Assembly: GCA_024743055.1 (NCBI GenBank)
Contig: JANSXH010000012.1
Location: forward strand, 62,001-126,000
Direction of reading: 5' to 3'
Source of the DNA: Pseudomonadota bacterium
GTDB taxonomy: Bacteria; Pseudomonadota; Alphaproteobacteria; Sneathiellales; Sneathiellaceae
Length of the DNA: 64,000 nt
Each line of letters opens with the position of its first letter. The first letter of the stretch is position 1. Made by a program: the position numbers and the translations under genes. Of this stretch, positions 7,467 through 16,602 are shown piece after piece. Under the pieces are notes generated by a model, which had not been told where the DNA came from, made no database searches, and worked only from the letters and a program-made list of their open reading frames with translations.

Positions 7467-8294
7467 ATGCCTGCTTTAAATCCATCCCTTTCCCTGGATA
7501 TCCTGTCCCGTATGATCGGCACTGCCGACTGTCCGGTGCTTATTGATTGCCGCATTGACGAGGATTTCGACCATGATCCACGTCTTCTGCCGACGGCCAT
7601 CCGCCGCTCCGCCTTCGATACCGCAGATTGGGCGGCTGACTATATGGGCCGCTCCGTTGTGCTCTATTGTCACAAAGGCCTCAAGCTAAGTCAGGGCGCG
7701 GCGGCCTGGCTCCGTCATTGCGGGGTTGATGCTGCGGTTCTGGAAGGTGGTTTCGTCGGCTGGAATGCTGCTGCTCTGTCACTGGTCCCTGAGGCAAAAC
7801 TGCCAAAGCGAGACGGCGAGGGGCGGACCGTCTGGGTCACCCGCAGCCGGCCGAAAATTGATCGTATTGCCTGCCCCTGGCTGATCCGCCGTTTTATTGA
7901 TCCAAAAGCCGTATTTTTATTTGTCGATCCGTCCGAGGTCCAAGCGGTGGCCGATCGCTTCAATGTGGTGCCTTTTGATATCGAGAATGTCCATTGGAGT
8001 CATCGCGGGGACCAGTGTACCTTTGATACAATGATCGAAGAATTTGGCCTGACAACAGAGCCCTTGCGGCGGTTGGCAAAAATTGTCCGGGGCGCGGATA
8101 CGGGCTGCCCGGATTTGGCGCCGGAATCTGCCGGATTGCTGGCCGCTTCTCTTGGCCTCTCGCAGATTTATGAGGATGATCTGGCCCAGCTCGAAAAGGG
8201 ACTGGAGCTCTATGACGCTTTCTATCGCTGGGCCCGGGATGCGGCAACGGAAACTCATAACTGGCCCGCGAGCCAGGCAGGAGATGCCGCATGA
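7467..8294 (+). CDS. chrB: Rhodanese-ChrB fusion, chromate resistance protein
   Basis: The 275-residue protein joins two parts. Residues 10-105 are a rhodanese-like domain with the cysteine loop CHKGLKLS (Cys68). Residues 115-265 are the ChrB C-terminal domain, with WVTRSRPKIDRIACPWLIRR, GDQCTFDTMIEEFGL and IVRGADTGCPDLAPES. ChrB proteins are needed for chromate resistance and in some bacteria sense chromate. A GGAGGA site 8 nt upstream fixes the start at 7467, although the frame opens earlier. The last 4 nt overlap chrA, so the two are translationally coupled. Confidence 0.85.
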   Translation: MPALNPSLSLDILSRMIGTADCPVLIDCRIDEDFDHDPRLLPTAIRRSAFDTADWAADYMGRSVVLYCHKGLKLSQGAAAWLRHCGVDAAVLEGGFVGWNAAALSLVPEAKLPKRDGEGRTVWVTRSRPKIDRIACPWLIRRFIDPKAVFLFVDPSEVQAVADRFNVVPFDIENVHWSHRGDQCTFDTMIEEFGLTTEPLRRLAKIVRGADTGCPDLAPESAGLLAASLGLSQIYEDDLAQLEKGLELYDAFYRWARDAATETHNWPASQAGDAA

Positions 8295-9691
8295 GTGAGA
8301 ATCAAGATCCCTCAGCGCAGCGTCTTGGCGCAGACGGCCGACCCTGGCCGAGCTTTGCCGAGGCCCTCTCTGTTTGGGCCCGGATTGCCTTACTCAGTTT
8401 TGGCGGACCTGCCGGACAGATTGCCGTCATGCATCGCATTCTGGTGGAGGAGAAGCGCTGGCTTGGTGAGGCACGGTTTCTTCACGCCCTTAATTTCTGC
8501 ATGCTGCTACCCGGGCCGGAAGCCCAGCAGCTCACTGTCTATATCGGCTGGCTCATGCATAAGACCAAGGGAGGGATCGCCGCCGGGCTGTTATTCGTAC
8601 TTCCCGGTGTTTTGGCAATCCTCGCGCTCAGCCTGATCTATGCCGAATTTGGACAGATAGGCGCGGTCGCCGCCCTGTTTTTCGGCCTGAAAGCCGCGGT
8701 TCTGGCCATTGTTCTGCAGGCTCTCTTTCGTATTGGAAGCAAGGCGCTCAAAAATCTCGTGATGATTGCCATTGCCATCGCTTCTTTCCTTGCCATCTTT
8801 GTCTTCGACGTCGCCTTTCCGCTCATCATCATCGGCGCAGGGGTGATTGGTTACCTCGGCGGCAAAGCCGGGATTGAAGCCTTTCAAAATGGCGGTGGTC
8901 ATGGCAGTAACGGTGCTGACGGGATCAGTGGCGAGCAGACTATCCTTGGTCTGGAAAGCAATGCGGAGGCAGTAAAACATACCAGCATCTGGACCGTTGT
9001 TCTCCTCCTCCTCCTCTGGCTCGGGCCTGTCGCGGGACTTCTGCTGTTGCTCGGCCCGGACAGTGTTTTTAGCGATATTGCTGTTTTCTTTAGCAAAATG
9101 GCAGTCGTCACGTTCGGCGGGGCCTATGCGGTTCTTGCCTATGTGGCCCAAGCCGCGGTGGAAACTTTCGGTTGGCTGAAACCCGGTGAAATGCTGGACG
9201 GTCTCGGCATGGCAGAAACCACACCTGGCCCTCTGATTATGGTGACCCAGTTCGTGGGCTTTATGGGCTCCTATCGGGATCCGGGAGCAATGCCGCCAAT
9301 GATGGCAGGAATTCTCGGTGGATTACTCACCACTTGGGTGACTTTCGCCCCTTGCTTTCTGTGGATCTTCCTGGGCGGTCCCTATATCGAAAAGCTGAGA
9401 GGCAACAAAGCTCTTTCAGCGGCATTGACAGCCATTACGGCCGCCGTTGTCGGTGTCATTCTTAACCTGGCGGTCTGGTTCGTCCTGCACGTAATTTTTA
9501 CGGAAGTCGACCGGTTTGAGGGGGGAGGCCTCAGTATTGCGGCGCCAGCCCTATCCTCTCTGGATCACTATGCCTTACTATTAACGGTTCTCGCCCTTGT
9601 GGCGGTTTTTCGGTTCAAGATCAATGTTCTGCTTCTTATTGCCGCAGCCGCACTTGCCGGAATTGCGCTATACGGTCTTGGACTGATTTGA
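8291..9691 (+). CDS. chrA: Chromate efflux transporter ChrA
   Basis: The 466-residue polytopic protein is a long-chain member of the CHR family, with the two homologous halves typical of it. Signatures are ALLSFGGPAGQIAVMHR, FLHALNFCMLLPGPEAQQL and, in the second half, AVVTFGGAYAVLAYVAQ and GLGMAETTPGPLIMVTQFVG. These proteins export chromate from the cytoplasm in exchange for protons. It overlaps chrB by ATGA. A MarR regulator gene follows after a 66-bp spacer that holds its own promoter, so it is not simply co-transcribed. Confidence 0.92.
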   Translation: MSENQDPSAQRLGADGRPWPSFAEALSVWARIALLSFGGPAGQIAVMHRILVEEKRWLGEARFLHALNFCMLLPGPEAQQLTVYIGWLMHKTKGGIAAGLLFVLPGVLAILALSLIYAEFGQIGAVAALFFGLKAAVLAIVLQALFRIGSKALKNLVMIAIAIASFLAIFVFDVAFPLIIIGAGVIGYLGGKAGIEAFQNGGGHGSNGADGISGEQTILGLESNAEAVKHTSIWTVVLLLLLWLGPVAGLLLLLGPDSVFSDIAVFFSKMAVVTFGGAYAVLAYVAQAAVETFGWLKPGEMLDGLGMAETTPGPLIMVTQFVGFMGSYRDPGAMPPMMAGILGGLLTTWVTFAPCFLWIFLGGPYIEKLRGNKALSAALTAITAAVVGVILNLAVWFVLHVIFTEVDRFEGGGLSIAAPALSSLDHYALLLTVLALVAVFRFKINVLLLIAAAALAGIALYGLGLI

Positions 9692-9757: not shown

Positions 9758-10228
9758 ATGGAAAAAGAACCCGCAACAAAGGAAGAGCTTCTTTATGAAG
9801 CTATTCAAATGACCCGCCCGCTATTGCGTCATATAACAGCCGCCATTGATACGTTATCGCTGGAACAAGGTATTTCGGTCGGTCAACGGGCAGTATTGGA
9901 GGGATTGCTTAAAAGCTCTCCACTAACCGCCCCTCAGCTGACCCAAAACCTTCAATTGAAGCGTCAATTTGTGGCAAGAATGCTGGCTGAGGTGAAGGCA
10001 CTGGGGCTAGTGACAGTTCAGGCCAACCCTCTTCATAAACGGTCGGTATATTACCTTCTATCCGAAAGCGGAAAATCCAGGATAACCGAGATAAGACGTC
10101 TCGAAATGGATCGAGTGACAGATATCTGCAAGCAATTTAGCGAGGAGCAGATTATTGCTTATCACCATCTGCAAGCCAGCCTTACAAACTGGTTTGCAGA
10201 TACTGAGATCTGGAAAGGAGAGGGGTGA
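9758..10228 (+). CDS. MarR-family transcriptional regulator
   Basis: The 156-residue protein has the MarR arrangement: an N-terminal helix, a winged helix-turn-helix at about 45-100 (APQLTQNLQLKRQFVARMLAEVKALGLV, with wing residues NPLHKRSVYYLLSESG) and a C-terminal dimerisation helix. The gene has no ribosome site; its promoter places the start point at the ATG. The 31-bp palindrome over the -35 is the obvious operator. It overlaps the isochorismatase-like gene by 1 nt (TGATG), so the regulator and enzyme form an operon. The effector is unknown. Confidence 0.85.
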   Translation: MEKEPATKEELLYEAIQMTRPLLRHITAAIDTLSLEQGISVGQRAVLEGLLKSSPLTAPQLTQNLQLKRQFVARMLAEVKALGLVTVQANPLHKRSVYYLLSESGKSRITEIRRLEMDRVTDICKQFSEEQIIAYHHLQASLTNWFADTEIWKGEG

Positions 10229-10893
10229 TGTGGAGTATTGTTTCTCTGGTGGCCCTCATTGTCCTGCTGGCGGTCGGATATACGATATGGGGCATGCGAA
10301 AAATCGGCAGACCTACGACGGGCCCGAAAATTGATCTTTCCCAGCGTACCGGAACAGCCTTGATCGTAATCGACATGCAGCGAGATTTTACGGAGATGAC
10401 GGGTCCGAAATCCTGGGAGCCGGAAGAGGCGCAACGGGTGATCGACGGGATCAATCATCGAGCCGAGTTTGCTCATAAATCTGGATGGCAGGTTGTGACA
10501 ATCCGTCAGGTTTATGAAGGAGCTTACACAAATTTTCTTGTTCGTCTTTTGGGCGGCGGGCTCGGGGCGAAGGGATCTGACGGCCTTGGTTTGGACTCTA
10601 GGGTTTCGGTCAATGCTGATGCGGATTTCGTAAAACCAATGAGCGATTCCTTTTCTTGCAAGGCGCTGGAGGCCTATCTTCAGGAAAACAGGATTGGTCA
10701 TCTGGAGCTGGTTGGCTTGAACGGTGTGTATTGTGTTAAGAACACGGCTTATGGTGCGCTGAACAGGGGATATAAAGTTACGCTGAATACAGAGGCGATC
10801 CTGGCATCATCGGAAGAGGGTTGGGTGAAAGAAAAAGAAAATCTCGCCAATAGGGGCGGTATTCTCACGGCGGCCTCCGGGAGCCCCCTGTAA
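10228..10893 (+). CDS. Membrane-anchored isochorismatase-like cysteine hydrolase
   Basis: The 221-residue protein begins with one transmembrane helix (residues 2-22) and continues as an isochorismatase-fold domain. The catalytic triad is visible: Asp49 in VIDMQRDF, Lys136 in FVKPMSDSF and Cys169 in VGLNGVYCVKNTA. Such enzymes hydrolyse amides, isochorismate or ureido groups; the substrate cannot be read off. A membrane anchor is unusual for the family. The start ATG overlaps the MarR stop, behind a strong GGAAAGGAGAGG site. A GTG three bases upstream is also open. Confidence 0.85.
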   Translation: MWSIVSLVALIVLLAVGYTIWGMRKIGRPTTGPKIDLSQRTGTALIVIDMQRDFTEMTGPKSWEPEEAQRVIDGINHRAEFAHKSGWQVVTIRQVYEGAYTNFLVRLLGGGLGAKGSDGLGLDSRVSVNADADFVKPMSDSFSCKALEAYLQENRIGHLELVGLNGVYCVKNTAYGALNRGYKVTLNTEAILASSEEGWVKEKENLANRGGILTAASGSPL

Positions 10894-13752: not shown

Positions 13753-14484
13753 ATGCTCAATGATAAAATCATCCTGATCACCGACGCGCTGCACTTTCTT
13801 GGAATTCCCGGCTCAACTGCCATGATCGCCAATGGGGCAACCGTTTATGCCCATGACAACGAATTTACCGATGCTGCTAAGCGGGCAGAGTTTGAAGCGG
13901 AAGTGCCGGGTGCTAAGGCCCTTTCCCTTCAGGACCCTGAGGAGCTGGTTGCTTACGTAGTGGAGGCGGAGGGACGGCTTGACGTCATGATTAACAATGA
14001 CGCTTTTCCAGCTTTGAAAGCCTCGATTGATGAAATTAATGTTGAGCAATTGCGGCAGACCCTGGAATCCTTGGTCGTGCGTGGATTTATGTTTGCCAGT
14101 GCAGCTTCAAAGCGGATGAAACCGGCCAAGAGCGGCAAGATCATCTTTATCTCCTCTGCCGCCCCGGCCCATGGCATTCCCAATTACTCCATGTATGTCG
14201 CGGCGCGGGGAGGGACCAATGCGCTGGCCCATAGTCTGGCCAAGGAGTTGGGCCGCTATAATATTCAGGTCAATGCGCTGGCCCCGAATTTTGTTGAGAG
14301 CCCGACCTATTTTCCAAAAGAGCTGTTGGAGAATGAAACGGCGTTTAAAAAGATTACCTCCCAGATTCCTCTGGGCCGTCTCGGCAAGCGCGAGGAAGCT
14401 GGAGACTATCTCGTCTTTCTGGCTTCCAACAAATCGGATTTCATTACCGGACAGGTGCTGTATTTCGCAGGTGGCTGGGCTTGA
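13753..14484 (+). CDS. Probable halohydrin dehalogenase (SDR fold)
   Basis: The 243-residue protein has an SDR fold but lacks the TGxxxGxG cofactor motif. In its place is T-x4-F-x-G (Thr10-Phe15-Gly17, ITDALHFLG), and the active site is Ser135-x12-Tyr148-x3-Arg152 instead of Tyr-x3-Lys. These two replacements define halohydrin dehalogenases such as HheC, which convert vicinal haloalcohols to epoxides and bind halide where SDRs bind NAD(P). Other HheC-like blocks are VMINNDAF (78-85), SGKIIFISSAAP and ITGQVLYFAGGW. Enzymatic activity is inferred, not shown. A SulP anion transporter lies upstream and an MFS gene is convergent. Confidence 0.82.
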   Translation: MLNDKIILITDALHFLGIPGSTAMIANGATVYAHDNEFTDAAKRAEFEAEVPGAKALSLQDPEELVAYVVEAEGRLDVMINNDAFPALKASIDEINVEQLRQTLESLVVRGFMFASAASKRMKPAKSGKIIFISSAAPAHGIPNYSMYVAARGGTNALAHSLAKELGRYNIQVNALAPNFVESPTYFPKELLENETAFKKITSQIPLGRLGKREEAGDYLVFLASNKSDFITGQVLYFAGGWA

Positions 14485-14490
14485 TATCAA

Positions 14491-15909
14491 TCATGCTGAG
14501 ACAGCTGCTTTCGATCTGACAAATCGAAATGCAGCGATTAGACCGACGATGGCTGCCGGCAGACAGGCAATGAAAATTGTATAGGCTACGTCGCGCATAA
14601 GATGAGGGTCGTTCCCCTCGGCGATACCGGACCAATTGGCGACAATCCCCATATAGGCGGCCCCAAGGGCGTATCCAAGTCGCTGCATTGTCGGGATGGC
14701 GGCTGAAACCCGCTCAGTCTCTGCCGGTCCGGCGACCACCGTTGCGCGGTGCAGAACAAATGTCCAGGCCATCCCGAAACCGACACCTTCAAGGACGGTA
14801 AAAACGGCGATGAGAAGCGGTGGGCCATTAGGGACGCTATAAATGAAACCAAGAATACTTAGCGTCAGAATGGTCATGCCGCCGGCAATCATTCTGCCTC
14901 CCTGGCTAGTCGGCACGCCTGAAATGAAAAACGCGGTGATCGACCAACCGATGGAGGAACAGGCGATGATATAACCGGCTTCGAGTGCCGTGGATCCGTG
15001 GAGTAAGGTGATCAGGAGAGGGCCGTAGACGCTGACGGCGATGGTGGCAATTGAAAAGCACAGGACCATTGTGAGGCCAGCGCCAACCGGATCGCGCAAG
15101 GAGAGAGTTGTCACCGGGAACAACCGGTTGCCCTGTTTGCCAGAATCGAGCCGAAAGAAGAGAAACAGAAAGCAGATACCGGCGATAAGGAATAAAGGTG
15201 TTTTGACAATGGAGACATCAACCCCGGCATAGGCGATAAACAATACCGAGAGAGACAGAAAAGCGAGGCGCCAGATGGGAAAGCGTTGGAACGTTTCGTC
15301 TGATCTTGTTGGTTTTGGCTCCTTTATGCTGAGGAAGATCCAGAGAGCGAGACCCAAGGCCTGAATGCAGAAAAACCAGAAGCCACCGCGCCAGGTACTA
15401 AATTCAACAAACAACCCGCCAATCAACGGACCAGTGAAAGCGGAGACGCCCCATAGGGTCGAAATCGCCCCGAGAGCCCGCGCCATCAGCCGTTCCGGGA
15501 ACAACTGGCTGCAGGCGACAAAGGCGAGCGCCATCAAGCCGCCACCCCCAAAGCCCTGCATCAGCCTACCGAGCAGGACGATCCACATTTCCGGGGCGAT
15601 GGCACTGACCATACAGCCAGCGGCGAACAGAAGGGCGGCAAAAGTCATGGGCCTGCGAATGCCCAGACGTAAGGCGAGTAGACCGCTTGCGGCTCCAGCG
15701 ACGATGGATCCGATTTCGTAGAGCGCAACGGTCCAGGAGATCAGGTTTGTGCCACCAATTTCCGCCACAATGGCCGGCATCATCGTCGCCACTAGTAGAC
15801 TATCTGCTGCGTGCAGCCAGACCCCGAGGCAGACCAGGGCCAACGGTACGGCATATTGACGGTTGACGATTTCCCGCCATTTTACAAAAGACGGATCACT
15901 CTTGCTCAT
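14491..15909 (-). CDS. MFS transporter, drug-exporter-like
   Basis: The 472-residue protein has 12-14 membrane spans. The motif-A-like loop LALRLGIRRPMTFAAL and the motif-C-like segment GVSAFTGPLIGGLF are typical of DHA-type proton-drug antiporters, with GRLMQGFGGGGLMAL between them. Substrate unknown. It is divergent from a regulator at 15979 with only 69 bp between the starts, a common layout for an exporter and its own regulator. Confidence 0.85.
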   Translation of the reverse strand: MSKSDPSFVKWREIVNRQYAVPLALVCLGVWLHAADSLLVATMMPAIVAEIGGTNLISWTVALYEIGSIVAGAASGLLALRLGIRRPMTFAALLFAAGCMVSAIAPEMWIVLLGRLMQGFGGGGLMALAFVACSQLFPERLMARALGAISTLWGVSAFTGPLIGGLFVEFSTWRGGFWFFCIQALGLALWIFLSIKEPKPTRSDETFQRFPIWRLAFLSLSVLFIAYAGVDVSIVKTPLFLIAGICFLFLFFRLDSGKQGNRLFPVTTLSLRDPVGAGLTMVLCFSIATIAVSVYGPLLITLLHGSTALEAGYIIACSSIGWSITAFFISGVPTSQGGRMIAGGMTILTLSILGFIYSVPNGPPLLIAVFTVLEGVGFGMAWTFVLHRATVVAGPAETERVSAAIPTMQRLGYALGAAYMGIVANWSGIAEGNDPHLMRDVAYTIFIACLPAAIVGLIAAFRFVRSKAAVSA

Positions 15910-15978
15910 CGACAGAAAAACCTATATTAATAAAGTTGATAATTTTAATAAGCATTTACTTTAAATAAAAAGTTGTCA

Positions 15979-16602
15979 ATGGAAAAAACATCGCAGGATC
16001 GCATTCTCTATCTTCTTAAAAGCCAGGGACCGCAAATGGCAAGAGACATTGCTGCTGATCTGGAAGTTACGACGCCGGGTGCACAGCAGAAGCTGGCCAA
16101 GCTTGCGGAGATGGAGCTTATCAGTTTTAAAGATCGTATTCACGGCAAAGGTCGACCGCATCGGTTCTGGGAACTCACGGATAGAGGCCATGCCCGCTTC
16201 CCGGACCGGCATTCTGATTTGACCCTCGACATCCTTCAATCAACGGAAGAGGTGTTTGGCAAAGAAGGGGTAGAGGCTCTGATCAGCCATCGAGAGAAGC
16301 AAACGCTCGCTCTTTATAGTGCTGAGATTGCCAAAAAGAAGACTCTTCCTGAAAGGCTGAAGGCCCTGGTGGAGATTCGATCCCGGGAAGGATATATGGC
16401 GGAAGTTGAGACGCTGGGAAAAGGTGAGTACAGGCTGATTGAAAATCACTGTCCGATCTGCGCTGCCGCCACCAAATGTCAAGGATTGTGCCGCTCGGAA
16501 CTCGATATCTTCCGGATGATCCTGGGGCCGGAAGCACAGGTCGAGCGGGAGGACCATATTCTCGCCGGGGCTCGCCGTTGCGCCTACCGAATAACAATTT
16601 AG
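15979..16602 (+). CDS. HTH regulator with cysteine cluster, SufR-like
   Basis: The 207-residue protein has an N-terminal winged helix-turn-helix (residues 5-75; QMARDIAADLEVTTPGAQQKLAKL) and a C-terminal cysteine region. The latter reads NHCPICAAATKCQGLCRSELD, ending GARRCAYRI; the five cysteines resemble the 4Fe-4S site of SufR-type repressors. An Fe-S or metal sensor is therefore likely, by analogy. The ATG at 15979 lacks a ribosome site; a TTG six bases upstream is in frame. The divergent MFS gene is the probable target. Confidence 0.75.
   Translation: MEKTSQDRILYLLKSQGPQMARDIAADLEVTTPGAQQKLAKLAEMELISFKDRIHGKGRPHRFWELTDRGHARFPDRHSDLTLDILQSTEEVFGKEGVEALISHREKQTLALYSAEIAKKKTLPERLKALVEIRSREGYMAEVETLGKGEYRLIENHCPICAAATKCQGLCRSELDIFRMILGPEAQVEREDHILAGARRCAYRITI

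Follow-up and report, generated by a model that had tools for sequence, protein, structure and literature searches.

The gene described here lies in a window of 64,000 nucleotides, by which we mean the whole stretch of DNA that was analysed, from an alphaproteobacterium of the family Sneathiellaceae whose genus we infer to be Sneathiella, a mostly marine group. An open reading frame at 13753-14484 on the forward strand (start ATG, stop TGA) encodes a protein of 243 amino acids, which is very probably a halohydrin dehalogenase (HHDH); such enzymes need no cofactor to convert halogenated alcohols to epoxides. The sequence is new; the kind of enzyme is already known. No literature joining Sneathiella with halohydrin dehalogenase or haloalcohol dehalogenase was found in open-licence PubMed Central. 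The features of the locus are collected in Table 1.

The gene and its motifs

Both HHDH motifs, which an earlier reading made from the sequence alone had reported, are found in the protein as T10-x4-F15-x-G17 and S135-x12-Y148-x3-R152. Residues S135, Y148 and R152 align with the catalytic residues of HheC, a Ser, a Tyr and an Arg that we take to be S132, Y145 and R149 of that enzyme. The halide-pocket positions of the protein correspond to those of HHDHs by alignment only; in HheC, N176 and Y177 presumably have roles in this pocket. P175 and L178 of HheC are named at the halide pocket in PMC11976700, which also gives the numbering of HheC T7, F12 and G14, the residues with which T10, F15 and G17 align. 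According to PMC11976700 and PMC4989007, the motifs of HHDHs are T-x4-F/Y-x-G and S-x12-Y-x3-R and those of short-chain dehydrogenases/reductases (SDRs) are T-G/A-x3-G/A-x-G and Y-x3-K, motif 1 being part of the nucleophile pocket in HHDHs. The protein does not fit either SDR motif, having F15 and R152 at the deciding positions. A search of its own genome gave 43 matches, one of them the protein itself, and neither HHDH motif occurred in any of the 21 SDR-type matches examined among the other 42, which indicates that the motifs in the window protein are not due to chance.

Table 1. Features of the HHDH locus, with positions in the window.
Feature	Position	Strand	Basis or remark
HHDH gene	13753..14484	+	Open reading frame, PDB phmmer, motifs, tree, model and fold search
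Motif 1, T10-D-A-L-H-F15-L-G17	13780..13803	+	Part of nucleophile (halide) pocket in HHDHs; replaces SDR glycine-rich motif
Motif 2, S135-x12-Y148-x3-R152 (Y148-VAA-R152)	14155..14208	+	Catalytic triad; aligned with HheC Ser, Tyr, Arg
P178-N179-F180-V181	14284..14295	+	Alignment with HheC P175-N176-Y177-L178 at halide pocket
MFS transporter gene	14491-15909	-	Between HHDH gene and purK
Gene with weak ArsR-type match	15973-16602	+	Between HHDH gene and purK; 21.5 bits, cut-off 22
Chromate transporter-family protein	8291-9691		Upstream of HHDH region
MarR-type regulator	9758-10228		Upstream of HHDH region
Isochorismatase-fold hydrolase	10225-10893		Upstream of HHDH region

We examined how well these positions are conserved using the best 80 of 163 relatives, referred to as the named relatives, 60 of which were aligned with the window protein (alignment A2, 61 rows). 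Residues G17, N82, D83, S135, Y148, R152 and N179 were identical in all 61 rows, and T10 and F15 were kept in 60. Both canonical motifs were present in 77 of the 80 named relatives, the exceptions being L054, truncated where its contig stops, L067 with S for T, and L109 with W for F. In a set of 30 sequences, window included, 27 had both motifs; here the exceptions were L028, which is cut, L034, in which W replaces F, and L037, with no Tyr at the catalytic position.

The exceptions include natural variants of motif 1, with Trp for the central Phe/Tyr in L034 (1501-2229) and L109 (6001-6729) and Ser for Thr in L067 (4017-4745), which are of interest for mutagenesis of motif 1 in HheC. Two genes, L037 at 1501-2217 (genome G059) and L139 at 299-1285 on the minus strand (a second copy in genome G171), have motif 1 and lack S-x12-Y-x3-R, and L037 has a proline at the position of the catalytic tyrosine. 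Because of these substitutions the two proteins may be inactive or differently active members of the HHDH fold. In three genomes of one other genus (L134/G120, L135/G228 and L136/G317) a pair of HHDH-like genes lies in tandem with 18-45 bp between them. Each pair has one copy that keeps S-x12-Y-x3-R; motif 1 is intact in two of these copies, and that of G228 has I for T. In the other copy the Arg is replaced by Gln, and motif 1 lacks an aromatic residue. On this pattern the pairs could be a catalytic and a non-catalytic subunit.

Placement among HHDHs and SDRs

Domain searches taken by themselves would fit a classical SDR, dependent on NAD(P), in which both motifs had changed by chance. The protein has the SDR fold, Pfam recorded matches to the SDR superfamily only (adh_short/adh_short_C2), and the 25 NCBIfam rows listed, of 206, were all SDR-type and all under their own cut-offs. 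The ranking of PDB sequences by phmmer argues against that reading. The top match was 6a41 (E 2.3e-68, residues 1-243) and the next nine were all HHDH entries (E 2.5e-45 to 2.3e-38), the ten bearing the names dehalogenase, HHDH or halohydrin epoxidase; the best ordinary SDR, the FabG 4nbu, followed at E 3e-29, nine orders weaker than the tenth match. The near-invariance of F15 and the invariance of R152, N82 and D83 in alignment A2 also speak against chance substitution. SDRs carry an NNAG motif.

Phylogenetic analysis places the window protein apart from the SDRs. A 50-row tree was built from 29 HHDH-type rows (window, six PDB entries and 22 relatives) and 21 SDRs, all from the window's own genome; subtypes E, F and G were absent from it. 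The HHDH-type rows, including the window, were split from the 21 SDRs with a support of 100/99, so that the clustering with NAD(P)-dependent SDRs that the sequence-only reading had named as evidence against itself did not occur. The split was recovered at 100/100 in a 38-row tree with seven SDRs. Within the 50-row tree the window protein grouped with HheA/HheC and apart from HheB (A/C branch, 96/93), and the four Sneathiella rows came together (100/99). HheA joined HheC (98/92) within a poorly resolved set in which HheA3 and HheA5 were not among the rows; strong support was found on only 15 of 47 inner branches, and the order within the A/C branch is therefore left open. In both trees 6a41 fell among Reyranella sequences. 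We take 7b73 to be HheD2 and 8xxb to be D-like, PDB listing both as SDRs. Given the sequence ranking, the conserved positions and the tree, we regard a classical SDR as scarcely credible, and the proposal of a probable new HHDH is supported.

An AlphaFold2 monomer model of the protein (pLDDT 93) best matched 6a41 and HheC, and the top nine Foldseek rows and top eight VIA-align rows were all 6a41, HheC or HheA entries. A model had been suggested as a check in the sequence-only reading; its matches agree with the HHDH assignment in that 6a41 and HheC structures rank over SDRs, although HheA structures tie with them.

Several observations weigh against the assignment. VIA-align scored HheA entries at 31.6-31.7 and SDRs at 31.8, an equality of Z that would also suit a classical SDR, and the Foldseek E-value of FabG 4nbu, 5.8e-23, equalled that of HheC 1pwx; owing to these two ties, the fold alone is not decisive. 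The A/C and B/D rows formed a single polytomy in the 38-row tree. P178 was kept in just 42 of the 61 rows of alignment A2. HheC P84, F86, W139 and L142, which have substrate-side roles, are replaced by A87, K89, I142 and Y145 in the window protein. Catalysis by the protein would follow from homology to HheC. Epoxide hydrolases were searched for as the EHN type in 24 Sneathiella genomes and as the LEH family in the window's own genome (86% complete), and none was found in either search, so there is no evident candidate for the enzyme that usually acts next; members of other epoxide hydrolase families may be present. With these points taken into account, it remains highly likely that the gene product is a cofactor-independent HHDH of the A/C branch.

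Comparison with individual enzymes shows where the window protein stands. About half of its residues differ from those of 6a41 (deposited as 'Dehalogenation enzyme'), which has Ser in place of Pro178; no literature on 6A41 as a dehalogenase was found in open-licence PubMed Central. HheC of Agrobacterium radiobacter AD1 (1pwx; engineered variants 5kwe, 5kvc, 9ldq and 4ixt) is 37-38% identical and shares with the window protein the catalytic triad, the Phe of motif 1 (F12/F15) and the Pro-Asn-aromatic-aliphatic loop. The C-terminal extension of HheC with Trp249 (PMC4989007) is lacking in the window protein, which ends at residue 243, aligned with HheC residue 244. HheA/HheA2 (4z9f, 1zmo) belong to the same A/C branch and have both motifs, with 36% identity to the window protein, but HheA is two residues longer around window position 90 and has Phe where the window protein has Val181. 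Among the A-type HHDHs characterised from alphaproteobacteria are HheA3 from Parvibaculum lavamentivorans DS-1 and HheA5 from Tistrella mobilis (PMC4989007); the window protein resembles them in its alphaproteobacterial origin and is 56% identical to relatives from Parvibaculum.

Distribution, inheritance and gene neighbourhood

In a sample of the class, 30 of 95 genomes gave a match at E <= 1e-40: the window's own genome, 20 of 23 congeners, the single further genome from the family, and 8 of the 70 remaining genomes of the class. Class-wide, 42 of 385 genomes and 25 of 276 genera (own genome and congeners included) matched profile A1 at E <= 1e-60, a count that rests on the profile match, some matching genomes lacking a motif. 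With relatives in 42 of 385 sampled genomes, the HHDH family is not sparse, contrary to its earlier description as small and sparsely populated. Identity to the window HHDH reached 78-79% within the genus and was 51-57% for Rhodobiaceae and Parvibaculaceae (Parvibaculum sp. 56%), with further relatives in various alphaproteobacteria, Rhodospirillales and Reyranella (Reyranella 48-49%).

The position and divergence of the gene were compared among the congeners. In all 20 HHDH-bearing congeners the gene is convergent with purK across a gap of 8-50 bp; in the window the gap is 2128 bp and contains the MFS and ArsR-like genes. Over the same 20 genomes, which are not independent and include one cut HHDH, HHDH identity tracked PurK identity (Spearman 0.70, p 0.0005). 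The GC content of the gene (0.53; 0.59 at third codon positions) is similar to that of neighbouring genes. Comparison with eight congeners gave nonsynonymous differences (pN) of 0.14-0.21 and synonymous differences (pS) of 0.62-0.74, the latter near saturation; between closer congeners dN was 0.07 and dS 0.64-0.77. The shared position beside purK, the parallel with PurK, the neighbour-like GC content and the low pN/pS speak for vertical inheritance of the gene under constraint, that is, purifying selection. That one bacterial genus should hold an HHDH so steadily is slightly surprising.

No HHDH match was found in three of the 23 congeners. In G010 (65% complete) a SulP gene lies directly beside purK with no HHDH between them, in G008 (98% complete) the end of a different gene lies beside purK at a contig start, and in G002 no purK was found either. 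We also considered a plasmid origin and rejected it, as only one of 72,556 plasmid records matched at E <= 1e-30. That record is a Microbacterium plasmid (36%), and the matching stretch carries features annotated as haloalcohol dehalogenase and epoxide hydrolase family protein.

The gene directly upstream of the HHDH gene in the window encodes a SulP anion permease, on the same strand and 114 bases away, and the sequence-only reading had raised the idea that this permease handles the released anion. With the window counted in, 18 contexts from the Sneathiella group were compared, and the upstream position is held by the SulP cluster in 8, but by a COQ9-family cluster in another 8; L050 has a different gene there and L054 is cut. 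Cluster names come from Pfam on representatives, the COQ9 name from a single one, L044. Since COQ9 takes the place of SulP in 8 of 18 contexts, and G010 keeps its SulP (83% identity) without an HHDH, we reject the link and consider a functional coupling of the two very unlikely.

Other lineages have other neighbours, such as alpha-amylase and SIR2 genes (L055) or SapC, GST-like and cyclase genes (L064). No partner gene common to several lineages was found by greedy calling of open reading frames and Pfam on just ten proteins, nine from relatives and one from the window. This calling takes antisense frames in GC-rich loci and missed the HHDH itself in many Reyranella rows; weaker associations can thus be missed. 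A scan for promoters and terminators gave nothing over chance level. The HheC gene shares its operon with an epoxide hydrolase gene (PMC11976700); unlike it, the window gene has no such operon in view.

Proposed reaction and native role

HHDHs are homotetramers with a spacious halide pocket and act reversibly on vicinal haloalcohols. The HHDH reaction mechanism is described in PMC4989007. By homology to HheC, Ser135 would hold the hydroxyl of a vicinal haloalcohol while Tyr148, its pKa lowered by Arg152, would take the proton. The alkoxide would then displace the neighbouring halide and close the epoxide. The halide would leave into a pocket that takes the place of the NAD(P) site of SDRs; Phe15 and the Pro178-Val181 loop are predicted to line it.

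The unusual feature of the gene is that it is near-core and chromosomal and stands without its usual partner. As only a guess, the enzyme might handle small halohydrins that form naturally, given a chromosomal, vertically inherited gene without a linked degradation operon. Alternatively, an HHDH-type enzyme could have another native reaction, for example one in which an anion opens an endogenous epoxide, with dehalogenation as a side activity. Such a reaction would suit the near-core, chromosomal standing of the gene, the lack of EHN-type epoxide hydrolases in the genus and the failure to find a neighbour in common between lineages, but at its catalytic and halide-pocket positions the protein agrees with characterised HHDHs and no result points to a different substrate; we consider it rather doubtful. 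Its odds and those of the HHDH assignment do not sum to one, because the assignment concerns what the enzyme can catalyse.

Returning to the HHDH assignment, we tentatively suggest that in Sneathiella and other alphaproteobacteria the HHDH gene has long been settled in the chromosome and is kept there by purifying selection, with neither an EHN-type epoxide hydrolase nor a visible degradation cluster to accompany it, and that its native role may be a general one, for example on natural halohydrins or epoxides. The HHDH genes that pollutant degraders carry in operons or on plasmids may then have been recruited later from this pool. HHDHs serve as biocatalysts, and the gene adds another candidate of practical use. 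Its nearly genus-wide, syntenic presence in Sneathiella indicates that HHDHs are not only recent genes of pollutant degradation, and allows their native substrate to be sought by experiment in cultured strains of the genus.
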